A DNA stretch of 64,000 nt, from positions 124,001 through 188,000 of the forward strand of contig CAITSZ010000011.1 in assembly GCA_903895195.1 (NCBI GenBank), written 5' to 3'. The DNA is from an uncultured Chlorobiaceae bacterium. Lineage in GTDB: Bacteria > Bacteroidota > Chlorobiia > Chlorobiales > Chlorobiaceae. Numbering within the stretch: position 1 is the stretch's first letter; each line of letters begins with the position of its first letter. The position numbers and the translations under genes were made by a program. Shown here piece by piece: positions 1 through 56,223 of the stretch. The notes beneath the pieces were generated by a model, which did not search any database, was not told where the DNA came from, and worked only from the letters and a program-made list of their open reading frames with translations.

Positions 1-1827
1 CTGAAGTCCTGAGAGCTTGAGGTAGACGTAATTATCGGAGGTAAAAGCCGAAAAGCTTGCTCCGATTTTATAAAGTTCTCCGTTGAACTCTGCCGGTTTG
101 AGGGCTGAGGTGCCGAGATAGGAGAGATAGTCAAGTGCAAGCTCAATGTTTTTGCTGTTATTTTTCCCGATATCAAACACATAGTAAAGAGAGAAAAGCT
201 CGTTTTCCCGGTTTTGCAGGTAATGCAGTTTGATGCTCGAATTGACATCAAAAAACTCGATATCTTTTGTATAGTCAAGAAAGCATGGCTCGGTTTTTTC
301 TGATTTCTGAGCCAGAAGTTTTTCCGCAAATGGTGATGCGGTATTGCGGTTCACCGTGAGAGGAGTGATCAGTGGTTTCTGAATCTTGGCTTCACTCTCC
401 GTTACGCCGTGCGCTTTATAAACGCTGACATAATTTGAGCCGTAGTGCTTCCGGCCAAACGCTACCAGCCCCTCTTTTGTGATATTCTGCAGACGTTCAA
501 ACTGACTGACATGTTCCTGCCAGGCCATACCCCATATAAATGAATCAACATAGGCTTCTACACGCCCCTTGTTGTTTTCATAGAGTTTAAGCTGCTCAAT
601 TTTCAGATCATTGATTGCCGCTTCGAGCAGCCAGTCATGAAATTTACCCTCTTTGAGAAGCTCAAGCTGGTTGAGCAGCAGCTCTTTCACCTCTTCAAGA
701 GTTTGTCCCTCTCTTGGCTTTCCGCTCAGCATATGCGCGGAGTAATCTTTCATCATCACCAGCATCGAGCCGCCATCAAGGACTTTCTGCTGCTGGTTGA
801 GGTTAAGATCAATAAGTCCGGCTGTCTGGTTATATAAAATTTTGTCAACAAGGGTAAGGTAATCAGCATCCGGGCTGTTGATTCCATTGAACCGGAACCC
901 TATAACAACCTCTTCTGATTCCGGGCCTGTAACCGTGATGATGGATGGCTCCGTTATTTCCTCCTCCACAGCAGGCGTATAGAGAGGAATCTCCTTTGGC
1001 CGCAGTACCGAAAACTTCTCGTCGATAAGTTTTATCGTTGCATCAGGATCGAAATCTCCTGCAATGCAGAGCGCCATGTTGTTCGGCACATAGTAGGTGT
1101 GGTAGTAGTTTAGAACATTTTTGATTGAAGGATTTTTCAAATGTTCTGCTTTGCCTATCGTGGTCTGGGTGCCGTAGGTGTTTTTTTTAAAAAGGTCAGC
1201 AAACATACTCTCCCATATTTTCCTGCCGTCACTGTCCATAGTCATGTTTTTCTCTTCATACACGGTCTCAAGTTCGGTATGAAAAAGTCTCATGACCGGA
1301 TTACGGAACCGCTCCGCTTCAATGGTAAGCCACTGGCCCAGTTTGTTCGACGGAATATCGTTGAGATAGACGGTCTGTTCAACCCAGGTGTAGGCATTGG
1401 TGCCATGAGCCCCGATGGAGTTCAGAAGTTTGTCATACTCGTTTGGTACGGTATAGCTGGCGGCAATATTTGAAATGCTGTCAATATCCTTGTATATCGC
1501 AGCTCTTTTATCCGCGTCAGCGGTTGAACGGTATTGTTCATAGAGTTCCGAAATCTTTTCAAGCTCGGTATGCTCTTTTGCATAGTCAAGAGCACCGATT
1601 GAATCCGTTCCTTTGAAGAGCATATGCTCAAGGTAATGAGCAAGGCCCGTTGTCTCTGCCGGATCATTTTTACTGCCTGCCCTTACGGCGATTGATGTAT
1701 ATATTCTTGGCTCATCGCGGAGTGTACTCATGAAAACGGTCAGCCCGTTATCGAGTGTATAGATTCTTGTATTGAGAGGATCTCCCGAAACCGTCTTGTA
1801 TGGATAGTTCTTAACGTCGTTGAACAT
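1..1827 (-). CDS. M16 family zinc metallopeptidase, C-terminus outside window
   Basis: The reading frame starts at the ATG at 1827 and is still open at base 1 (609 codons seen), so the 3' part is missing. The first domain carries the inverted zinc motif HxxEH (H64-Y-L-E-H68), followed by an acidic stretch ending EEKN that supplies the third zinc ligand in M16 peptidases. A second M16-type domain (about residues 200-380) and the start of the C-terminal half follow. Full-length bacterial members are about 900 residues, so roughly two thirds is visible. I see no N-terminal signal peptide from this start. It is transcribed divergently from uvrB. The family assignment is firm; the substrate is unknown. 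Confidence 0.9.
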
Positions 1828-2008
1828 GGGCCTGCATGATATTAAATGTAAAAAGGGTATCCCGATCGAAAACAAAGGGATACGGTGGTTTCTGAACCTC
1901 TGAAATTGCCCCGTTGTAAAAAAAAATATAATAATCGGATATAAAGCGCATAATTGCAACCTTCATCACTGACCTTTTTGCATTAATATACAGTCTGGAA
2001 ACTGAAGG

Positions 2009-2110
2009 AGCACTGCTCATGTTACACCGTTGCAGAAGTTGCTCTATTTTAAAGCTCTCACACCGGCGGAATTGGAAGGTAATGACCCGTGGATGTTGCG
2101 TAAGAACTAA
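2009..2110 (+). pseudogene. Possible small-gene relic upstream of uvrB
   Basis: One frame between a TGA at 2003 and a TAA at 2108 reads like a protein C-terminus (ending [16 protein letters not shown]). It has no ATG or GTG start. The nearest ATG (2019, with an AAGGAG ahead of it) is in a different frame, as if one indel had separated start and body. A stem-loop with a T run follows directly. It could be a decayed or misread small gene, or chance. The rest of 1828-2184 shows nothing else. Confidence 0.2.
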
Positions 2111-2134
2111 CAAATTGCTTTAATAGTTCTTTTT
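2102..2134 (+). terminator. Stem-loop with T run
   Basis: AAGAACTA (2102-2109) pairs with TAGTTCTT (2124-2131) across a 14-nt loop, and T residues follow. This has the form of a weak rho-independent terminator on the plus strand, just before uvrB. Confidence 0.4.
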
Positions 2135-2184
2135 ATGCGCGTGAAAGAGGAATACGAAATACTATCAAGAGAGGAGAGTTGTTT

Positions 2185-4239
2185 ATGCAGGGGAACGGGA
2201 GCGGAATATACAGGCTTGTAAGTCCATACAGTCCGGCAGGTGACCAGCCGAAAGCCATCGAAGCGCTTACCGAGGGAGTCCTGTCAGGTAATCCATACCA
2301 GACTCTGCTTGGCGTTACCGGTTCCGGCAAAACGTATACCATTTCAAACGTCATTGCCCAGGTCAACAAGCCTGTGCTGGTGATGAGCCATAACAAGACC
2401 CTTGCTGCACAGCTCTACGGCGAGCTCAAGCAGTTTTTCCCCGATAATGCCGTTGAGTATTTTATCAGCTACTACGACTTCTATCAGCCTGAAGCTTACC
2501 TGCCGGCGCTTGACAAGTATATAGCAAAAGACCTGCGCATAAACGACGAGATTGAACGCCTGCGTCTCAAAACTACCAGCGCGTTGCTCAGTGGCAGGAA
2601 GGATGTTATTGTGGTCAGTTCTGTCAGTTGCATTTATGGTCTTGGTTCACCTGAAGATTGGAAGGCCCAGATTCTTGAACTGCGTTCCGGAATGGAAAAA
2701 GATCGGGATGCTTTTCTCAAAGAGCTGATAGCTCTTCATTATATCCGTGATGATGTCCAGCCCACTTCGGGGAAGTTCAGGGTCAGGGGTGATATTATTG
2801 ATCTTGTTCCTGCTCATGAAGAGCTTGCTCTTCGAATAGAGTTTTTCGGAAACACGATAGAGAGTCTTCAGACCTTTGAAATCAACAGCGGGGAAGTGCT
2901 TGGGGTCGAAGACTACGCCTTTATTTATCCAGCCCGGCAGTTTGTCGCCGATGAGGAGAAGCTCGGAGACGCCATGCTGGCAATTGAAAACGAGCTTGCA
3001 GGTCGGTTGAATTATTATCGTGATGAAAACCGCTTTCTTGAGGCCCGCAGGATTGAGGAGCGGACCCGTTATGATCTTGAAATGATCAAGGAGCTCGGCT
3101 ACTGTTCGGGGATTGAAAATTATTCAAGGCACCTTTCCGGACGCAAAGAGGGTGAGCGGCCTTACTGCCTCCTTGATTATTTCCCTTCGGATTATCTTGT
3201 TGTCATTGATGAATCCCATGTAACGCTGCCGCAGATTCGCGGCATGTACGGTGGCGACCGCTCCCGCAAAACCATTCTTGTTGAGCACGGTTTCAGGCTT
3301 CCTTCAGCGCTCGACAATCGCCCGCTTCGTTTTGAGGAGTTTGAGGAGATGGCACCGCAGGTCATCTGCGTCAGCGCCACCCCCAGCGAGCATGAACTGA
3401 TGCGTTCAGGCGGAGTGGTGGTCGAACAGCTTGTGCGTCCTACAGGTCTGCTTGACCCTCCGGTTGAAGTTCGTCCAGTCGCGGGGCAGATCGATAATCT
3501 CCTTGCTGAAATCCGTATCCATACAGGCAAAGGTCATAAGGTTCTGGTCATGACGCTGACAAAGAGAATGGCTGAAGATCTGCACGACTTTTTCCGGAAA
3601 ACGGGCATACGCTCGCGCTACCTGCATTCGGAGATCAAAAGTCTTGAGCGCATACAGATTCTCAGGGAGCTCAGGGTGGGGGATATCGATGTGCTTGTGG
3701 GGGTTAACCTCCTTCGTGAAGGGCTTGATCTTCCCGAAGTATCGCTTGTGGCTATTCTTGATGCCGATAAGGAGGGCTTTTTGCGCAACACCCGTTCGCT
3801 TATGCAGATTGCCGGCAGGGCGGCGCGTAATGTTGAGGGCTTTGTTGTGCTCTATGCCGATGTTCTGACGCGCTCCATTCGTGAAGTGCTCGATGAAACC
3901 GCAAGGCGTCGTGCGATTCAGCATCGGTATAACGAGGATCATGGCATTACTCCGCAGTCAATTATAAAATCGCTTGATCAGGTTCTTGATACCACCAGTG
4001 TGGCTGATGCGGAAGAGCGCTATCGCAGAAAGCGTTTCGGCCTTGAGGCAAAGCCTGAAAGGCTGCTGTCGGGCCTCATTGAGACGCTGACGCCTCAGGA
4101 AACGTATGCCATGGCAGCTGAACTCCGGATTGAAATGCAGGAGGCTGCTGTGCAGATGGAGTATGAAAAAGCGGCCTACCTGCGCGATGAAATTTCAAAG
4201 CTGGAACAGGCTATAAAGCGTTTGCCGGCTGAGGGATAG
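2185..4239 (+). CDS. uvrB: Excinuclease ABC subunit UvrB
   Basis: UvrB is the damage-verifying helicase of nucleotide excision repair: it receives DNA from UvrA and positions UvrC for incision. The 684-residue length is typical. Visible parts are Walker A GVTGSGKT (43-50), the beta-hairpin [12 protein letters not shown] that inserts into DNA, the DESH helicase box in the middle, the [10 protein letters not shown] helicase motif, and a C-terminal UVR motif ([14 protein letters not shown]) that contacts UvrC. I chose the ATG at 2185 because GAGGAG lies 8 nt upstream; an in-frame TTG two codons earlier is less likely. It appears to be monocistronic. Confidence 0.97.
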
Positions 4240-46454: not shown

Positions 46455-46778
46455 TCAAGCAAAGCCAAGCCACACGGCGAGAGCTCGATTAATCGTCAGC
46501 ATCGTAGCATCGTCGAGACGACCGAAGGTGGCTCCCAATTTTTCACGAGGTACGGTTTGAACCTTATCGACCATCACTTGTGATCTTTTTTCAAGGTTGG
46601 TCACAGTTGTAGGCTCAACGTCAATCCGAAATAACGGAGCTTTTCGAAGGTCGCTTGTCACGGGCAGGATTGTCACAGAAGGGTGTTCAGAAAAAAAAAT
46701 GGACTGAACGACAAGGGCAGGGCGGGGTTTTCCGTAATCACCTTGAAGCGCAATGGTAACAAGATCACCTCTCTTCAT
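46455..46778 (-). CDS. MazF/PemK-family toxin (mRNA interferase)
   Basis: 107 residues. KRGDLVTIALQGDYGKPRPALVVQS is the MazF/PemK start; ILPVTSDLR and VDKVQTVPREKLG are the other family blocks. It is expected to cut mRNA at short motifs when free of antitoxin. Its ATG overlaps the antitoxin stop by 4 bases (ATGA), typical for a coupled pair. It converges on the permease gene. Confidence 0.92.
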   Translation of the reverse strand: MKRGDLVTIALQGDYGKPRPALVVQSIFFSEHPSVTILPVTSDLRKAPLFRIDVEPTTVTNLEKRSQVMVDKVQTVPREKLGATFGRLDDATMLTINRALAVWLGFA

Positions 46779-46987
46779 GCTTTCCAGCCCTCGCGGTCTG
46801 CTGTTTCATCTAAAAACCGCAAAACCTCCTTTTCATGCTGGCCATTTTTGATCAGTGCTGATTGCCGCTTGCACTCCTCAGCAAATCCCTCGCATCGTGT
46901 ATCCGGAACCCAGATTTGTACCGGCCGCATTCCTGCCTTGCGTAAACCCGCCCTGTGTTTTTGGACCCGTTCAACAACTCCAGCCAT
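46775..46987 (-). CDS. MazE-like antitoxin (DUF3018 family)
   Basis: 70 residues from the ATG at 46987, preceded by AAGAGGTG. The start MAGVVERVQKHRAGLRKAG and MRPVQIWVPDTR are the DUF3018 antitoxin pattern; the C-terminal part (FLDETADREGW) should wrap the toxin. A longer in-frame start at 47035 runs into the probable operator and is unlikely. A decayed copy of its 5' end is found at 49621-49695. Confidence 0.88.
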   Translation of the reverse strand: MAGVVERVQKHRAGLRKAGMRPVQIWVPDTRCEGFAEECKRQSALIKNGQHEKEVLRFLDETADREGWKA

Positions 46988-47016
46988 CTTGCACCTCTTG
47001 ATTCGTTTGTAGGTAT

Positions 47017-47063
47017 GTAACTTTGTTACATGCAACGTATGTCAAAAATCTGTTACATGCAAC
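47017..47063. promoter_or_regulatory. mazEF operator region with direct repeats
   Basis: TGTTACATGCAAC occurs twice (47024-47036 and 47051-47063, 27 bases apart). The first copy overlaps the small palindrome GTAAC-TTT-GTTAC (47017-47029). The spacing and the position upstream of mazE suggest sites for the antitoxin or toxin-antitoxin complex. Confidence 0.6.
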
Positions 47064-47129: not shown

Positions 47130-47168
47130 TGTATGCAATAATAAAGTTGAACTTTAATATTGCATACA
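47130..47168. promoter_or_regulatory. 39-bp near-perfect palindrome before the ATPase relic
   Basis: The arm 47130-47148 (TGTATGCAATAATAAAGTT) pairs with 47150-47168 around one central G; only one of the 19 pairs mismatches. It ends directly at the ATG at 47169, so it is probably the operator/promoter of the (now broken) ATPase gene. Confidence 0.6.
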
Positions 47169-47453
47169 ATGATTGCGCGTCATCTCATGTCTGCCCTTAG
47201 AGTATCCTGTTGTAACGCTTACCGGTCCAAGGCAATCAGGGAAAACCACTCTTTGCAGAACTGCTTTTCCTGAAAAACCTTACAGCAATCTGGAGAGGCC
47301 CGATATTCGTAATTTTGCACAGCATAATCCGGCAGGATTTTTGGCCCAGTTTCCAAAGTATACGCTGGTCAGGAACAACAAAAACGCAGCAATGCTGAAG
47401 TGTTAAGTTATCTGTATGCGGGTGAAGCCGCAAGAGAAAACCCGCTATCTTGA
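47169..47453 (+). pseudogene. Broken ATPase gene (AAA_14/DUF4143 type)
   Basis: The ATG at 47169 starts MIARHLMSALR. Then the frame shifts by about 2 lost bases near 47200, and the next frame continues EYPVVTLTGPRQSGKTTLCR, a P-loop typical of AAA_14/DUF4143 ATPases, and NLERPDIRNFAQHNPAGFLAQFP. After about 47365 the family pattern stops. A third frame reads EQQKRSNAEVLSYL... to a TGA at 47451, which may be the tail of another gene. It is at least one frameshift plus a large internal deletion. Confidence 0.7.
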
Positions 47454-47515: not shown

Positions 47516-48421
47516 ATGAAGAAAAACAGGATTGACTTTGAACGGATTAAACGCCTGATCATCATTGCGCTGGTGTCTGATGACTATTTAATGGAGACGC
47601 TGGTTCTGAAGGGTGGCAATGCGCTTTCAGTCGCTTACGAACTTTCATCGAGGGCTTCTTTTGATCTTGATTTTTCTATTGGTAATGATTTCAGAAATGT
47701 GCCCGATGTAAGATCACGCATGATGAAAGTGCTTGAAGAAAAGTTCCGATTAGAAGGGTTTCAAGTATTTGATTTTTCTTTTCTTGGAAAACCTCGAGTA
47801 TCAAAAGAGGCTTTAAAGGATTTCTGGGGCGGATATTTAGTGACGTTCAAGTTTATTGAATTGGAGCTGTTGCGGCAACTTGGTCGGGATGCCAATTTTG
47901 AAGATATGCGCAGAAATGCAGTACCGATTTATCCGGATCAATCACGATCAATCGTGATTGAAATCAGTAAGTATGAGTTTATCGAGGACCTGCAGGAAGT
48001 AGAGCTGGATGGGTATACGGTGCAGGTGTATGCCCCGCGATTACTGATTTTTGAAAAGGTTCGGGCCATCTGTCAGCAGTTAAAGGAGTATAAAGAGGTT
48101 ATTCCATCGTTTTCGCCGAGAGTCCGGACGCGGGATTTTTATGACATTGCTACACTGATGAGTCATTTTTCGGTTGATCTGTTCTCAGCGGAGAGCAGAA
48201 AAATTCTGATGCAGGTTTTTGATGCCAAGCGGGTCCCTTATGCCTATCTTCACAACATAAACAGTAGCAGGGAACTGCACAGACAGGGTTTTGCGTCGTT
48301 AGTTGACACGGTAACTGCCGATGAGAAGGAAAATCTTAAGGATTTTGATTTTTACTTTGATTACGTGATCGAGACGTTTTCATCTATGCTGGATGAAGAT
48401 CTTCAGAAGCCTTTGGGATAG
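47516..48421 (+). CDS. AbiEii/AbiGii-family nucleotidyltransferase (toxin)
   Basis: 301 residues from the ATG at 47516; a frame extension back to a TTG at 47450 is possible. The nucleotidyltransferase pattern LVLKGGNALSVAYELSSRASFDLDFSI (GG...DLDF) and the downstream EVELDGYTVQVYAPRLLIFEKVRAICQQ and RTRDFYDIATLM blocks identify the AbiEii toxin family, which modifies tRNA or other targets with NTPs. Its 3' end overlaps that of the opposite-strand AbiEi-like gene by 19 bases. The usual AbiE layout is a same-strand operon with antitoxin first. Confidence 0.85.
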   Translation: MKKNRIDFERIKRLIIIALVSDDYLMETLVLKGGNALSVAYELSSRASFDLDFSIGNDFRNVPDVRSRMMKVLEEKFRLEGFQVFDFSFLGKPRVSKEALKDFWGGYLVTFKFIELELLRQLGRDANFEDMRRNAVPIYPDQSRSIVIEISKYEFIEDLQEVELDGYTVQVYAPRLLIFEKVRAICQQLKEYKEVIPSFSPRVRTRDFYDIATLMSHFSVDLFSAESRKILMQVFDAKRVPYAYLHNINSSRELHRQGFASLVDTVTADEKENLKDFDFYFDYVIETFSSMLDEDLQKPLG

Positions 48422-49278
48422 TAGAGTTGCCAGGTTTCTGAGTACTCGGTTTCCTGCATGGCATATGTGAGGTAGAAATCATACTGAAATTCCCGTTTTT
48501 TTAGCAGGTTGAGCAGGCTGTCTCGGTAGCCAGCTTTTTCCATATAGAAGCCAATAGCCTGATGGTAAGGATAGGTGAAGTCAAGCCTGCCAAGCATAGC
48601 GTTCAGCTTGTTGACAGAAACGTTTTCACGGGCGTTTTCGTACGCTTTGAGTACCTCTCCGATTCCTCCTGAATATGCCGGTCGAACGGCAATATCGATA
48701 AGGGTTCTTTCTATGTTTGTGACGTGAAGAGTCCCTTCTTTTTGATGTTCCATTGTCATTATACCTTCATTGTGCGTACACTTGCCGTTGAGTAAGGAAA
48801 TTGTGACTCCTTCATAGACAGCAAGGTTATTTGATGATCGTTGTGGCTTGGAAAAAGCCGTTTCGATATCTTTTTGCTTTAAAACTGTCTTTTCGATTTC
48901 TTTGGGGGATTGCTCAAAAGTGACATAGATGGTTTTGGGTATTTGCTCGGTCAATTGATGGAGATACAGAGCTGTATAGTGAGAAAGGTAAGCTTTGGGT
49001 TTTAATCCTTGGACGAGTTCATAGAGAGGGGCACTTCCGTAGACGTAACGTTTCAGTGTGGTTTTTAAAAAAGGAAAGGTTAGAGCTTGCAGCTTAGTTT
49101 TTGAGAGCAATTCATCAATGAATTTTTCTGTTGTCATACTTTGAGTGAGTCGCCATTCATTACGATGTTTGTCGAGAATGGTTGCGATATCATGTGAGCT
49201 GAAAACCTTGAGAGGATTATTCTCTAAGAATGTTATGATATCTTTCTTTGCGATGGAAAATCGGGTGATGCCTGCCAT
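48403..49278 (-). CDS. AbiEi-like antitoxin/regulator
   Basis: 291 residues. The N-terminal winged-helix region (KVFSSHDIATILDKHRNEWRL), the middle YLSHYTALYLHQLTEQIPKTIYVT and the later VTNIERTLIDIAVRPAYSGGIGEVLKAYENAR are the plan of AbiEi/type IV antitoxin proteins, where the N-terminal domain binds DNA and the C-terminal part neutralises the toxin. It faces the toxin tail-to-tail. Three long palindromes lie upstream of its start and are likely its operators. Confidence 0.8.
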   Translation of the reverse strand: MAGITRFSIAKKDIITFLENNPLKVFSSHDIATILDKHRNEWRLTQSMTTEKFIDELLSKTKLQALTFPFLKTTLKRYVYGSAPLYELVQGLKPKAYLSHYTALYLHQLTEQIPKTIYVTFEQSPKEIEKTVLKQKDIETAFSKPQRSSNNLAVYEGVTISLLNGKCTHNEGIMTMEHQKEGTLHVTNIERTLIDIAVRPAYSGGIGEVLKAYENARENVSVNKLNAMLGRLDFTYPYHQAIGFYMEKAGYRDSLLNLLKKREFQYDFYLTYAMQETEYSETWQLYYPKGF

Positions 49279-49295
49279 GAGTTATTGTAGTAAGC

Positions 49296-49321
49296 AACAT
49301 GTAGTATTTATACTACATGTT
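49296..49321. promoter_or_regulatory. Palindrome 1 of 3, shared core
   Basis: Perfect 12-bp arms AACATGTAGTAT/ATACTACATGTT with a TT centre, 18 bases upstream of the AbiEi-like start. The core AGTATTTATACT recurs in the next two palindromes. Confidence 0.7.
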
Positions 49322-49384
49322 GTAAATTTACATTTTTATAAGGACAAAAGCAAGAGCTTGCGTATTATTATTGATTTATACAGT

Positions 49385-49410
49385 ACTGGTAAGTATTTAT
49401 ACTTACCAGT
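49385..49410. promoter_or_regulatory. Palindrome 2 of 3, shared core
   Basis: Perfect 12-bp arms ACTGGTAAGTAT/ATACTTACCAGT with a TT centre; one more pair can be added at each end. The centre lies 89 bases from palindrome 1. The outer arm bases differ from palindrome 1 but the AGTATTTATACT core is the same. Confidence 0.7.
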
Positions 49411-49494
49411 AAATTAATAAAACAAAAGCTAACAGTCAAGGGATATTTTTTAAGCCCATATAACTATAATTATTTGAATCTTTTAGATCATCCT

Positions 49495-49526
49495 GCATTG
49501 TGTTAGTATAAATACTAACACAATGC
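49495..49526. promoter_or_regulatory. Palindrome 3 of 3, shared core on the other strand
   Basis: Perfect 15-bp arms GCATTGTGTTAGTAT/ATACTAACACAATGC with an AA centre. The core AGTATAAATACT is the reverse complement of the core in palindromes 1 and 2. Its centre is 113 bases from palindrome 2. Confidence 0.7.
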
Positions 49527-49620
49527 GTGTGCTAATAAGTTCCTGACAAAGACGGGGCAGCTTCAAGATACTCATCAATCAACCGCTGAGCCATCGGATG
49601 TATCGGCAGAAACCTTAGTT

Positions 49621-49695
49621 CTTGCGTAAACTTGCACTGTGTATTTGTACCCTTTCAACAACTCAAGCAATCTTGCTCCTCTTCATTCGTTTGAA
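49621..49695 (-). pseudogene. Relic of a mazE (DUF3018) gene 5' end
   Basis: These bases align closely with 46937-47011, the start of the intact mazE including its ribosome site. The copy reads IA*VVERVQIHSASLRKN*: start ATG changed to ATT, an early stop, and a second stop after 18 codons. Beyond this a different frame continues QELRFLPIHPMAQRL to a stop near 49535, apparently the tail of an unrelated gene fused by deletion. Confidence 0.75.
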
Positions 49696-50819
49696 TTTAT
49701 TGGTGGAACTTCTTGACTTTGAAGGGGAACGTCAGTTAATAATATCCAACGGTTTACCAAGAGAGTATCTTGAGGGTCAAAAGATCGATCGATAAGTTGT
49801 TCATATAGTATCCTTGCGGTTTCTATTGTTCGTTGGTCGCCGATTGCGGCAAGGTCGGCGTAGATAAGGATCGGATGTGTCGTATCGCCATCACCGAAGC
49901 CATTGCCGAGCGGCCAGAAGCGTTCGAAAATCTCTATGTTGCCCTGCGGGTCCTTTTTCAGCCTGTTAGCGATTACCAGCTCTCCGAGACGATTCTTGTC
50001 TGCGTATAGAGTGATAGTGCCTGGTTTCAAGTATCCGGTCAGTTTTGCTGCGGCAACCTCTCCACTCCACTGGGCGAGGGTAGGATCCATTTGGATATCT
50101 TTCCACCACTCCTTATCACCCCGGAATCGTCCCAGCAACAGTTTGGGTTTCAAGTAGTCGGGATACGCTTCAATCCAGCGCTCAAAAAGCTTCTTTTTAT
50201 TCAGGAGCTTTTTTCCCTTTTTGCCCATCTCAACAATGAAGCCTTTCTGGATCAGTTCGGTCATGGTGCTTTTTACCGTTCCCAAGGCGACATTCGTCAT
50301 TTCGGCAATATCACGATAGGGTCTCTTGACGAGTTCCGGTTGGCACAAAAAGAGATAGACGATTTTCAGGCCAACCCCATTGAAGAGACGAGCTGTGGGA
50401 GCAGCGATTTCATCCTTTTCCGGTTTATTGCCTTTAACGAAAATCAACAGTGGCGGTTGATTGACAAAGGCATTTCCGGCCGTGTCGATGAACTGGATAC
50501 CGGCGTCGCGCAATCTTCCTGCGGCCTGGGGGGGAATGTATCTTGCAGCTAACAGAAATGGATGCGGCATCTTATCCATGTTCATCAAAAACTGGAGCTC
50601 TCCTGGTTTGGTAAGATGTTTTGTTACGTCGACGCACCAAACGAATTCTTTCCCGAAAACTTTTACCCTCACAACGCAGTCGTATTTATGGTCAGGAATG
50701 ACGTAAACCGGTTCGATAGCGTATTCCAGTGGTGCGATTCTGTTAAGGGCTTCCATAGCCTGCCGAAGGATTAGTGCTTTGTGCTCGGCTAAATTATGTT
50801 CAATAATATCATTGTTCAT
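49683..50819 (-). CDS. Orphan AbiEi-like winged-helix protein (type IV antitoxin family)
   Basis: 378 residues from the ATG at 50819. An N-terminal ~120-residue domain reads like the restriction-endonuclease-like fold common in this family (DCVVRVKVFGKEFVWCVDVTKHL; RLRDAGIQFIDTAGNAFVN). A winged helix follows (about 155-215: KRPYRDIAEMTNVALGTVKSTMTELIQKGFIVE), then a ~150-residue C-terminal domain. I recognise it as the DNA-binding antitoxin type that normally pairs with a nucleotidyltransferase. No partner lies directly beside it, so it is either an orphan regulator or the remnant of a pair. It overlaps the mazE relic at its 3' end. Confidence 0.65.
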   Translation of the reverse strand: MNNDIIEHNLAEHKALILRQAMEALNRIAPLEYAIEPVYVIPDHKYDCVVRVKVFGKEFVWCVDVTKHLTKPGELQFLMNMDKMPHPFLLAARYIPPQAAGRLRDAGIQFIDTAGNAFVNQPPLLIFVKGNKPEKDEIAAPTARLFNGVGLKIVYLFLCQPELVKRPYRDIAEMTNVALGTVKSTMTELIQKGFIVEMGKKGKKLLNKKKLFERWIEAYPDYLKPKLLLGRFRGDKEWWKDIQMDPTLAQWSGEVAAAKLTGYLKPGTITLYADKNRLGELVIANRLKKDPQGNIEIFERFWPLGNGFGDGDTTHPILIYADLAAIGDQRTIETARILYEQLIDRSFDPQDTLLVNRWILLTDVPLQSQEVPPINSNE

Positions 50820-50849
50820 ATATTTTGAACATAAAAAATAATTGAACAT
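50796..50849. promoter_or_regulatory. Nested inverted repeats at the orphan gene start
   Basis: Outer arms ATGTTCAAT (50796-50804) and ATTGAACAT (50841-50849) enclose inner arms TGTTCA (50813-50818) and TGAACA (50826-50831). All share the word TGTTCA/TGAACA, so two dimers could bind. They straddle the start codon, which fits autoregulation. Confidence 0.5.
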
Positions 50850-51510: not shown

Positions 51511-53376
51511 ATGTGGAATGATATCGAAACAACAGAAGACTTATTGAATTTTAAAGTCGTAGCAGATACTGCTGCTCAAATGATCAAAGATGGTAACGGA
51601 GAACCTGTATCTATTGGTGTTTCAGGAAGTTGGGGAGTTGGGAAATCGTCATTGGTAAAAATGATTGGTGATTCGCTTAAGGCACTTGATGGTGGGAAAA
51701 ACTACATCTTCATCGATTTCAATGCATGGTTATATCAGGGTTATGATGACGCTCGGATGGCTCTTTTACAGAAAGTCGCCGATAAAATCATGGAAGAAGC
51801 TGAATTAAAAAAGACATGCGTTGATAAAGCTATGATATTTATCAAGCGCATTAATTGGTTGAGAACGGCAAAGTTTCTAGCTCCCGTTGCCTCTGGAATA
51901 ATTACTGGGGGAGTAGTTGCTGGTCCAGTTGGGGCATTTATGGGTGCTATTAGCGGATTATTTAGCCAAAAAGGAAATCCGAGTCAGAAAGATATCTCCA
52001 TGATTAAAGAGTCTTACACTCAAATCGAGCCCGATATCAAAAAACTTCTTAATGATAAAGAAGAGAAATCCGTACCTAAAGAAATCGACGCTCTGCGGGC
52101 GCTTTTTCAGGATATTCTAGAAAGTCTCGATTTAACACTGATTGTTCTTGTCGATGATCTTGATCGATGCCTTCCGAATACAGCTATTGCGACGCTTGAG
52201 GCTATGAGGTTACTACTATTCATACCGCATACAGCATTCATTATTGCCGCAGATGAGCAAATGATTCGCAATGCAGTCCGATCTCACTTTGGCAACATTG
52301 ATCTCAGCGATGAACTTGTCACCAGTTACTTTGATAAGCTTATTCAAATACCTCTCAGAGTTCCTCGACTTGGAGCCAATGAGGTCAAGGGTTACCTGAT
52401 TTTGCTTTTAGCTGACTTAGCAGAACGCCGTAACATTATTACTCAAGAAGAGAAGCAACAAGGTCAAGATGTGATTGTTGCAGCGATCAAAAAATCTTGG
52501 TCTGGCGGACTGACAAAAAAAGTTATCGAAGAAGCCTATGGCAATGCGGCATCGAAACTTTCTACACAAATCGAGTTAGCTGATCAGCTTGCCAATATCA
52601 TGGCGACGTCTGATCATATTGCTGGAAATCCGAGACTCATTAAAAGGTTTTTAAATAATCTCATTATTCGTGAGTCTATTTCCAAAGCACAAGGAATGAG
52701 TGTTGCATTCGAGGAACTTGTTAAGATTCAACTTTTTGAAAGATGTGCTCCAACTTCTGCTTTTGAATATTTAGTTAAGCAAGTTGGTGAGAGTGATGAC
52801 GGCAAACCAAAATTTTTGAACCAATTAGAAGGTCAGATCGCCAAAGCTGAAGATCTTACCTTTTCGCATGATTCATGGAGGGTTCCATTTATTGCGGACT
52901 GGTTGAAACTGAGCCCTCCTTTGGCCGACATTGATTTACGTCCATTACTTTATTTGAGCAGAGATAAAGCAATATCTATCGCCAGTTTTGATGAACTTTC
53001 GGCTGGTGGAAGAGAGCTAATAACCGCTCTATGTAAAGCGCAGGGTATATATCAGCCGTTGATTGAAAAAATAAAATTAATTGGCGCAACTGAGTCTGAC
53101 AAAATTCTCTCTAGAATGAAACGCAAAGTGAGAAATCAACAGTGGGACTCAACAGTAATCACTCAAGCATTACACTTGCCCAAAGCATTTCCTGAACTTG
53201 CGTCATCATTCCTTTCATTGCTTGACGAAATTCCTGCAACCAAAAGACAGGTCAGCCTGATTCCGCTTCTTAGAAATGAATCGTGGGCTCAGGAGATATT
53301 AGGCCGCTGGGAAACAGATGAGACTTCACCGCCTACGGTCAAGAAGGCTATACTCTCAAATAGGAGCAAAAAATAA
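51511..53376 (+). CDS. qatA: QatA, KAP-family P-loop ATPase of the Qat defence system
   Basis: 621 residues. Walker A GSWGVGKSS (39-47), a KAP-type FIDFNAWLYQGYDDARMALLQ segment, a hydrophobic insertion with Gly/Ala-rich hairpin (about 130-150) and Walker B LIVLVDDLDRC (D215, D216). The KAP ATPase, followed by a QatB-like, a QueC-like and a TatD-like gene, is the described Qat anti-phage system. It is the first gene; its stop overlaps the qatB start by one base (TAATG). No ribosome site is obvious before its ATG. Confidence 0.9.
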   Translation: MWNDIETTEDLLNFKVVADTAAQMIKDGNGEPVSIGVSGSWGVGKSSLVKMIGDSLKALDGGKNYIFIDFNAWLYQGYDDARMALLQKVADKIMEEAELKKTCVDKAMIFIKRINWLRTAKFLAPVASGIITGGVVAGPVGAFMGAISGLFSQKGNPSQKDISMIKESYTQIEPDIKKLLNDKEEKSVPKEIDALRALFQDILESLDLTLIVLVDDLDRCLPNTAIATLEAMRLLLFIPHTAFIIAADEQMIRNAVRSHFGNIDLSDELVTSYFDKLIQIPLRVPRLGANEVKGYLILLLADLAERRNIITQEEKQQGQDVIVAAIKKSWSGGLTKKVIEEAYGNAASKLSTQIELADQLANIMATSDHIAGNPRLIKRFLNNLIIRESISKAQGMSVAFEELVKIQLFERCAPTSAFEYLVKQVGESDDGKPKFLNQLEGQIAKAEDLTFSHDSWRVPFIADWLKLSPPLADIDLRPLLYLSRDKAISIASFDELSAGGRELITALCKAQGIYQPLIEKIKLIGATESDKILSRMKRKVRNQQWDSTVITQALHLPKAFPELASSFLSLLDEIPATKRQVSLIPLLRNESWAQEILGRWETDETSPPTVKKAILSNRSKK

Positions 53377-54218
53377 TGGGAACTTCATCGTCAAGTTCAG
53401 GTCCGGCATCAGGAGTTTCTTTCGATCCACCATGGCTGAGTTCAGTTGCCTCTGAAATAGGTTCTCCATTGGAAAATATTTCTGGAGAAGAATCTGATCT
53501 TGGTAATCAGCCAACCGAACCAGTCACTCAACCTTTTGAAATGTCCCCACCACGGCGTTTTGGTAACGCAAGGCGATATTTGGGTGAATATGTAGGCAGT
53601 GGTGACAGAGGTACACTTAAAAAAGCAATAGGCAGCTACTCTCGTAAAGGGATGGGTGGTGCTGCGAACGTTGCAAGAAGGATGCGGGCATCTACATCTG
53701 CTGGTGCTGGGCTGTTTAATTTTCTTCAAGGGGTTAGCGATAGTTCGGATATAAATGTCAGGGATTGGGTAAACCAACTTACAGCGAACAATCTTTCGGC
53801 CTATGAAATCGCCGATCGAATTATTGATCAGGTTATTTCTTCAGGTGGCAGTCTTGATGAAGAGTCTTGCAAAGATTCGATGGCTCAAGCCATGTCTGAG
53901 TTGTTGACAATCAATCCAGAAGTTGATCTGATGAAAATGGACAATGACAGCATCTGGACAGTAATTGAATTGTTTATGGCTAATGAGGCATTTAATAGAC
54001 TTGACCTTGATATCGGCCAATTGTTTGAGAGTGCAAAATATTCGCCCTATGAAGCGGTTTCTCGAATGAATGACATGCGAGAGTATCTGAAGTCTGAAAT
54101 TTTCGCACAAATTCAAGCGCTTAGAGCAAGCACGCCAAATCCATCTAAAGAAGAAATGAACAACCTACTTCAATCGGCATTGAGGCTGACCTTTGAAATA
54201 TTTGAGGAGGAAATATGA
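53376..54218 (+). CDS. qatB: QatB, Qat system protein of unknown activity
   Basis: 280 residues. A Ser/Gly/Pro-rich N-terminus (first ~50) is followed by an all-alpha body with RRYLGEYVGSGDRGTLKKAIGSYSRKGMGGAANVARRM, a segment I associate with QatB. No enzymatic motif is visible. AGGAGC precedes the ATG. It overlaps qatA by 1 base and qatC by 4, so translation is coupled. The assignment rests on position and general similarity. Confidence 0.85.
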   Translation: MGTSSSSSGPASGVSFDPPWLSSVASEIGSPLENISGEESDLGNQPTEPVTQPFEMSPPRRFGNARRYLGEYVGSGDRGTLKKAIGSYSRKGMGGAANVARRMRASTSAGAGLFNFLQGVSDSSDINVRDWVNQLTANNLSAYEIADRIIDQVISSGGSLDEESCKDSMAQAMSELLTINPEVDLMKMDNDSIWTVIELFMANEAFNRLDLDIGQLFESAKYSPYEAVSRMNDMREYLKSEIFAQIQALRASTPNPSKEEMNNLLQSALRLTFEIFEEEI

Positions 54219-55498
54219 GGAAAATTATTTGCGCCCCAGAAAATCTCATTCCTCAGCAAATGGAGGGTGAAAAAAAATATTTCTGTACATACTCCAATCC
54301 TCAACGTGATGATGTGGGATATTTCGGTCGCACACTGAAAAAAGATATAGAACGTGCAGGACTTCGTCCTTCGGTTGCAGTTTGGGATTTTACCACAATT
54401 GCCCTCTCTGTCGCTGCGGCTGATAATTCCATTCATAGAAAGACGAGTGCTGATGGCTGGACAAGACAAATAGATCTGACTGTTCATCTTTCTGAACCAT
54501 CGGCATGGGAACCAGTAAAGCTTAACCTACAGAAAACCTTAAAGTTTTTGACAGGAGATTTTTGGTATTTAACTTTCAAAAATGGTGGTGTAAATCCACC
54601 CAAAGCTAAGAATATCAAGCAATATGATTGTGATTGTGTTTCTTTGTTGTCAGGAGGAATAGATAGTTTGGTTGGAGCAATTGACTTGACGTCAGATAAT
54701 CACAAACCAATTTTTGTTTCCCAGATTGTAAGAGGTGATGCTAAAACGCAAAGAGAATACGCTAAAAGAATAAGACCTGAAAGTGCTCACTTCCAGTGGA
54801 GTCACAAGATTCATCCGCCTAGTGGAGAATCAGAAGGATCAACTAGGGGTCGATCAATAGTCTTTTTTGCATTTGCTGCCTTGGCATCATCCGCAATCAA
54901 TACACAACATGAAGGGCCTGTTAAAGTTTTCATTCCCGAAAATGGTTTCATCAGCTTAAACATACCTCTCAATTCAGGTCGCATGGGGAGCTTCAGTACA
55001 AAGACGACGCACCCTGTATATCTAGCTGGCATCCAGAATATTTGGTCGAAGCTTGACATCGGCATTCAGTTGATTTCACCATATCAGTTTAAAACTAAAG
55101 GGGAGCTTATGTATGAATGTAGGAATAGAAGCCTTTTATGTGAATTGATAAATAAATCAGTGAGTTGCGGGAAATATAGGGTTCATACAATGCAACATTG
55201 TGGCCGCTGTGTACCCTGTATGGTGAGAAGAGCTGCTTTTTTAAAGGCTGAGATCGTTGACATCACAACAAACGGATACAAATTTAATAATTTATCATCT
55301 GCTGGCCTGATGCATGGTCCAAATGATGTGGGAGCTATGGCGACAGCCTGCCACAAAATCAGCCAAGTCGGTATTCATAATTTTATTTCCAGCAATCTCT
55401 TTTTTGCAGATACTGACAAGAGAAATAATTTTGAAGGCGTTATAACAAGAGGCTTCAAGGAAATTGAAGATTTTTTGAAAGAAAACGGTTTGTTATGA
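54215..55498 (+). CDS. qatC: QatC, QueC-like PP-loop protein of the Qat system
   Basis: 427 residues. The PP-loop SGGIDS (146-151) binds ATP. Four Cys (C318, C329, C332, C335, the last three in CGRCVPC) form the zinc site of QueC-type 7-cyano-7-deazaguanine synthases. An extra ~140-residue N-terminal part and the operon context separate it from housekeeping QueC. It may act on a base, nucleotide or protein target; the chemistry in Qat is not settled. GAGGAGG precedes the start. Confidence 0.9.
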   Translation: MRKIICAPENLIPQQMEGEKKYFCTYSNPQRDDVGYFGRTLKKDIERAGLRPSVAVWDFTTIALSVAAADNSIHRKTSADGWTRQIDLTVHLSEPSAWEPVKLNLQKTLKFLTGDFWYLTFKNGGVNPPKAKNIKQYDCDCVSLLSGGIDSLVGAIDLTSDNHKPIFVSQIVRGDAKTQREYAKRIRPESAHFQWSHKIHPPSGESEGSTRGRSIVFFAFAALASSAINTQHEGPVKVFIPENGFISLNIPLNSGRMGSFSTKTTHPVYLAGIQNIWSKLDIGIQLISPYQFKTKGELMYECRNRSLLCELINKSVSCGKYRVHTMQHCGRCVPCMVRRAAFLKAEIVDITTNGYKFNNLSSAGLMHGPNDVGAMATACHKISQVGIHNFISSNLFFADTDKRNNFEGVITRGFKEIEDFLKENGLL

Positions 55499-56223
55499 TG
55501 GATTTGCATACTCATTTGGATCTTTACAAAAATGCGATGGATATTCTTTCAAAGGTAAACAGTATCAACAGTTTCACCCTTGCGGTTACTACAAGTCCTC
55601 GTGCGTGGATGGCAACAAGGAAAGTTTTTTCGGGCTATAATAATATCAAGGTAGCACTTGGTTTGCATCCGGAAATCGTTGTTGAGAAATTTAATGAACT
55701 CGATCTTCTTATAGCATTGATTCCACAAGCTGATTTTATAGGGGAAATAGGTATCGATGGCTCTGCAGGATATGTAAAATCACTGCCACAACAGGAAATG
55801 ATTTTTGATAAAACAATAAAAGAGTGCCAGAAAGCTGGCGGCCGCATTATAAGTATCCATTCCAGAGGTGCGGTTGCAAAGGTTCTTGAAATTTTAAAAA
55901 AATACCCGGACTCCGGAATACCAATTCTACATTGGTTTACAGGATCAATTACTGATTTACAAGCAGCAATTGATATGCAGTGCCGATTCAGTATTAATCC
56001 TTTAATGGTTTACAGCAAGAAGGGGAAAGATTTAATATCAAGAATTCCACAATACTTGATATTTCCAGAATCTGATGGGCCGTTTGCCATTCTGAATGGA
56101 AAACCTGTTATGCCTTGGGAAGCTATGGATGTTTGTACTTCCTTGAGTGAAATATGGGTCATTCCTATTGAGGACGTAAAATCTATAATGCACAAAAATC
56201 TGAATGCGCTGTTAAATAACTGA
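55495..56223 (+). CDS. qatD: QatD, TatD-like metal-dependent nuclease of the Qat system
   Basis: 242 residues. Metal ligands of the TatD amidohydrolase fold: HTH near the start (H5, H7), the Glu in GEIGIDGS, the His in ISIHSRGA and ILHWFTG, and an Asp in FPESDGP (normally ETDxP). The last change keeps the Asp. It overlaps qatC by 4 bases. It is somewhat shorter than housekeeping TatD (about 260). Within Qat it is presumed to degrade nucleic acid. Confidence 0.88.
   Translation: MMDLHTHLDLYKNAMDILSKVNSINSFTLAVTTSPRAWMATRKVFSGYNNIKVALGLHPEIVVEKFNELDLLIALIPQADFIGEIGIDGSAGYVKSLPQQEMIFDKTIKECQKAGGRIISIHSRGAVAKVLEILKKYPDSGIPILHWFTGSITDLQAAIDMQCRFSINPLMVYSKKGKDLISRIPQYLIFPESDGPFAILNGKPVMPWEAMDVCTSLSEIWVIPIEDVKSIMHKNLNALLNN

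Follow-up and report, generated by a model that had tools for sequence, protein, structure and literature searches.

A convergent variant of the AbiE toxin-antitoxin pair with symmetric palindromes upstream of the antitoxin gene

How are a toxin and its antitoxin kept in balance when their genes face each other instead of sharing an operon? The question is raised by a locus in a 64,000-nucleotide stretch of DNA from an uncultured Chlorobiaceae bacterium (the window), where an AbiEii-like gene on the forward strand and an AbiEi-like gene on the reverse strand had been predicted to converge and to share 19 bases at their ends. The reading frames and the family matches to both genes bear out this convergent pair, and the shared 3' ends amount to exactly 19 bases, 48403-48421. 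AbiE is one of the commonest phage defence families, ranked fourth in abundance by PMC11375011. The premise of the original prediction, that known AbiE is a same-strand operon with the antitoxin gene first, agrees with the characterised loci (PMC3985639), which makes the convergent order a departure. The features of the pair are as follows.

47516..48421, forward strand: AbiEii-type nucleotidyltransferase (NTase) toxin gene, 301 aa from ATG, NTase motifs intact
48403..48421, unstranded: 19-bp overlap of the two 3' ends, without a terminator-like site
48403..49278, reverse strand: AbiEi-type antitoxin gene, 291-aa product with a wHTH at the N-terminus and the AbiEi domain at the C-terminus

The toxin frame as listed opens with a TTG at 47450, and the ATG at 47516 is the start that matches the family. 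Its product is an AbiEii-type NTase with catalytic motifs, as judged from (i) matches to Pfam AbiEii (2e-16) and PADLOC, (ii) the motifs KGGNAL, R46/S48/D50/D52, EKVRAICQQ, and RTRDFYDI, in which the invariant residues are kept, and (iii) an AF2 model (mean pLDDT 83) that matches the MenT3/TglT fold. The antitoxin is an AbiEi with an N-terminal wHTH and a C-terminal domain; its Pfam AbiEi_1 score is marginal (22.1 bits, just below the 22.2 cut-off), PADLOC AbiEi matches it at 1e-25, and its AF2 model (mean pLDDT 89) matches S. agalactiae AbiEi / Rv2827c (6y8q and 1zel). The bicistronic same-strand operon with the antitoxin first, as known for AbiE, is absent here and in about 30 relatives, and the pair is filed as an AbiE variant rather than a canonical member because its genes converge. 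The antitoxins of this convergent subfamily are mostly annotated as "hypothetical protein", which gives the toxins the appearance of orphans.

The pair lies within a partly eroded island rich in defence genes, whose other features are listed below.

46455-47035, reverse strand: MazE-like/PemK toxin-antitoxin pair
47130-47168: near-perfect palindrome, 39 bp with 19-nt arms, present once in the genome, directly before the truncated AAA_14 ATPase gene
47173-47406: truncated AAA_14 ATPase gene
49683-50849, reverse strand: lone AbiEi_2-type regulator (PF09952, 1e-43), without an adjacent toxin
51511-56223: complete QatABCD anti-phage system (QatA 3e-128, QatB 3e-30, QatC 9e-100, QatD 8e-76)

A short open stretch on the reverse strand, at about 49530-49650, could be the remaining end of a lost gene and has no convincing match. 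Since the island holds other broken defence genes, chance neighbours should be common in it, and a lone AbiEii could adjoin an independent AbiEi-like regulator by accident. We regard this as barely credible, as the pair recurs in dozens of loci from several phyla. Moreover, separate partners elsewhere, which had been named in advance as evidence against a functional pair, are not what the plasmids point to: their AbiEi and AbiEii matches fall in nearly the same records.

The original prediction had called for a survey of convergent AbiE pairs, and toxin relatives (mostly 28-45% identity) were taken from genome contigs, plasmids, and whole-genome searches, with gene orientation assigned by HMMs for both genes. 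One plasmid relative comes from Bacillus subtilis (NZ_CP015223). The same convergent order was found in about 30 diverse loci, from Chlorobiota, Bacteroidota, Pseudomonadota, Planctomycetota, Bacillota, and others, a recurrence that exceeds chance. Plasmids of Streptococcus, Lactococcus, Ligilactobacillus, Lactiplantibacillus, and Staphylococcus pseudintermedius carry the two genes in divergent order, and more distant relatives carry them on the same strand. We found no description of convergent or divergent AbiE pairs in the papers searched, which came from an open-licence PubMed Central library. In the final tree, built from both proteins with 45 rows and without the long-branched L038, L058, and L072, a separate clade (100/100) holds the same-strand pairs, and the divergent pairs form a single clade within the convergent group, so that two orientation changes suffice; an earlier tree that included these three loci required three changes, with the placement of L038 unsure. 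L038 itself (Bacteroidota genome G343, 1462-3214) is a distant, convergent AbiE pair with a 28-nt gap and without a palindrome, and its convergence is possibly an independent inversion. Decaying copies also exist, as seen from the split toxin frames of L026, L034, and L010 and the split antitoxin frame of L026.

The closest relative is a Chlorobiaceae genome, whose two genes are 89% and 86% identical to those of the window and overlap by an identical 19 nt, which rules out an assembly artefact. The pair is present in only one other among 150 relatives, which suggests that the module was acquired horizontally. Carriage by phages is unsupported, as no relatives were found in viral contigs and phage records.

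Across the convergent pairs of this subfamily, 29 of 31 overlap at their 3' ends. The commonest overlap, exactly 24 nt, occurs in 14 of them, lengths range from 4 to 81 nt, and two pairs of the core subfamily (L008 and L015) have none; the 19 bases themselves are thus not a conserved feature. Terminator-like sites near the overlap were detected in 1/32 loci in the toxin sense and in 0/32 in the antitoxin sense, and in the window the closest site in the toxin sense lies at 48516-48531, within the antitoxin gene. As no terminator separates the overlapping coding ends, the transcripts probably run into each other, each entering the opposite gene, and the frequency of overlap together with the scarcity of terminator-like sites means that antisense pairing is anatomically allowed. 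The proposed control by mRNA pairing across the 3' overlap is therefore plausible, and mutual antisense or transcriptional interference would link the two genes in a second way.

The locus gives its strongest signal at 49295-49526, beyond the stretch covered by the original prediction, in the form of three palindromes upstream of the antitoxin gene.

49295..49322, unstranded: palindrome P1, 28 bp, 13-nt perfect arms and a 2-nt centre, centred at -31 from the AbiEi start codon
49384..49411, unstranded: palindrome P2, 28 bp, 13-nt perfect arms, centred at -120, identical in the Chlorobiaceae relative
49434..49439, reverse strand: TTGACT, candidate -35 hexamer of an AbiEi promoter, shortly upstream of P2, assigned by position only
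49495..49526, unstranded: palindrome P3, 32 bp, 15-nt perfect arms, centred at -233

P1-P3 are the only palindromes in the 64-kb window whose arms are perfect over at least 12 nt and whose spacer does not exceed 2 nt. A fourth genomic AGTATWWATACT, on contig 5, has arms that are not complementary and serves as a negative control. In the Chlorobiaceae relative, the arms of P3 are changed, mostly with compensation, so that compensated arm changes are directly visible between the window and its closest relative.

Palindromes lie upstream of AbiEi in 30/32 convergent (all except L038 and L061, where none was detectable), 7/7 divergent, and 10/13 same-strand loci. There are one to four per relative; counted from the start codon, they often lie at about -20 to -45, -100 to -160, and -200 to -250. 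Those of the divergent loci occupy the space between the two genes, and in the convergent loci they are not found at the toxin 5' end. A sample of 29 loci drawn from the phylum with Pfam AbiEii (L064-L092) yielded a single palindrome of this kind in each of 2 loci and none in the other 27. Conservation is limited to the centre. Convergent and divergent loci have GTATATATAC or a similar sequence there, and the same-strand sites have GTCCTNAGGAC in 17/17 cases; the arms vary among loci and among copies within one locus, yet remain complementary. Six same-strand loci (L099, L056, L098, L103, L032, and L033) have longer perfect palindromes of 37-49 bp, with the invariant centre GTCCTNAGGAC and unrelated arms.

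To avoid the bias of sites chosen for their symmetry, we seeded further tests on cores that were not selected for arm symmetry. With a 5-bp palindromic core as the seed, the next 8 pairs were all complementary in 60/155 centres upstream of AbiEi in the convergent loci, versus 4/718 elsewhere in the same loci; the corresponding counts of full extension were 17/52 versus 0/146 in the same-strand loci and 14/47 versus 0/148 in the divergent loci. With the family core as the seed, positions 6-13 were fully paired in 49/64 convergent/divergent sites and positions 6-18 in 16/17 same-strand sites, and each of these positions is of mixed composition. When sites at matched positions in related loci are compared, 57/244 arm positions differ, and 52 of these 57 differences are compensated. 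G-T wobble accounts for only 1 of 1686 arm pairs in the scored sites, and the mismatches of the seeded set comprise 5 G-T, 7 A-C, and 15 others, that is, G-T is not in excess over A-C. As the arms differ yet stay complementary almost without wobble, the symmetry is selected or maintained at the level of DNA, and selection on RNA is disfavoured.

The palindromes could nevertheless be RNA hairpins in the antitoxin leader, as all of them lie within the 250 nt that precede the start codon and, as single strands, fold strongly. Besides the near absence of wobble, the position of the promoter argues against this. TTGACT upstream of P2 is also present in the Chlorobiaceae relative, and in 12/30 convergent loci TTGAC begins 31-40 nt ahead of the P1 centre, a spacing that places the predicted -10 element in the left arm of P1 and the predicted transcription start near its centre, so that P1 would not be transcribed in full. 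Scans of the locus for terminator and promoter consensus sequences gave results at chance level, and these promoter statements are hence based on where TTGAC lies with respect to the palindromes across loci. As the palindromes also have no match in Rfam, we consider RNA hairpins very improbable.

Most likely, given their position, the palindromes are AbiEi operators over the antitoxin promoter. On one account, they would be ordinary dimer operators, with arms that are bound by AbiEi homodimers of relaxed specificity and a symmetry that only mirrors the twofold symmetry of the protein. Consistent with this, the positions over the promoter suit an operator, and the convergent group has a weak common half-site (G at position 5, A at 6, and T at 14). 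However, positions without sequence preference should lose their symmetry under such a model, whereas the same-strand copies upstream of one AbiEi differ at 112/218 arm positions, all of them paired in both copies (a count biased upward, as within-locus pairs rest on symmetry-chosen sites). Past the 5-nt core, these arms are thus about as alike as random sequence, and we find ordinary dimer binding somewhat unlikely as an account of the symmetry.

The drift of arm letters under a constant symmetry suggests either that a folded form of the DNA (cruciform or hairpin) matters or that template switching repairs the arms. In the latter case, AbiEi would read only the conserved centre, replication template switching would copy arm changes from one side to the other, and the symmetry of the arms would be only a mutational by-product, with no folded structure having a function. 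Template switching is known to homogenise the arms of imperfect palindromes (PMC7202029, PMC8604942), and it would yield compensated changes without wobble, as seen here. The lengths of the arms are peaked, however (13 or 14 nt in 42/73 convergent-family sites and mostly 18-24 nt in same-strand sites), which suggests a required size, and such palindromes are nearly absent elsewhere in the same loci. A purely mutational origin is therefore a real possibility that falls short of being probable. In the former case, AbiEi-type antitoxins of this group would read DNA shape. Their operators would work in an extruded form, as cruciforms or hairpins whose centre is conserved and whose arms are free in sequence, and antitoxin expression would respond to supercoiling or single-stranded DNA, as may arise during phage attack or plasmid transfer. 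We put this forward tentatively, as an unlikely proposal in its full form. As reasons for the symmetry, we weigh recognition of folded DNA and maintenance by template switching about equally, and the peaked arm lengths make us lean toward a functional requirement.

Taken together, we favour, with somewhat better than even confidence, a reading in which the locus is an AbiE module whose two genes no longer form one operon and face each other. AbiEii would be a tRNA-type nucleotidyltransferase toxin and AbiEi both antitoxin and repressor, as their folds, motifs, and families suggest. AbiEi would repress its own promoter by binding the palindromic operators, of which the nearest lies over the predicted -10/start region. 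The toxin would be expressed separately, from a putative promoter of its own that has no such sites, which would replace the usual autoregulation of a shared operon, and the convergent transcripts would couple the two genes. The convergent order breaks the rule of one autorepressed promoter common to both genes, and therefore offers a natural test of toxin-antitoxin balance without an operon. Palindromes that stay symmetric under drifting letters are a comparative signal seldom met with, and they open the question of what AbiE senses to a direct test; reading of shape, if true, would give AbiE a trigger.

Binding of repeats in their own promoters is established for AbiEi of S. agalactiae, AbiEi of S. 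suis, and Rv2827c (PMC3985639, PMC11062541, PMC7319586). With the type IV AbiE system of S. agalactiae, the pair shares the AbiEii NTase motifs, the AbiEi wHTH and fold (6y8q), and repeats at the antitoxin promoter (PMC3985639). The S. agalactiae genes, however, form a same-strand operon with the antitoxin first, in which abiEi overlaps the 5' end of abiEii by 4 nt, and their operator consists of a pair of 23-bp repeats that are oppositely oriented and separated by 3 bp, in place of the separate perfect palindromes seen here (PMC3985639). AbiG is the solved structure that the toxin family matches best in sequence (PDB 9hlo, 2e-7), and its AbiGI weakly matches the antitoxin family (4e-4). It differs in that a putative bicistronic operon has been described for abiGi/abiGii (PMC3985639). 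Finally, Rv2827c-Rv2826c and MenT3/TglT of M. tuberculosis share both protein folds and the presence of several repeats upstream of the antitoxin gene, but have the same-strand order and repeats with a common sequence consensus (PMC7319586, PMC11375011).
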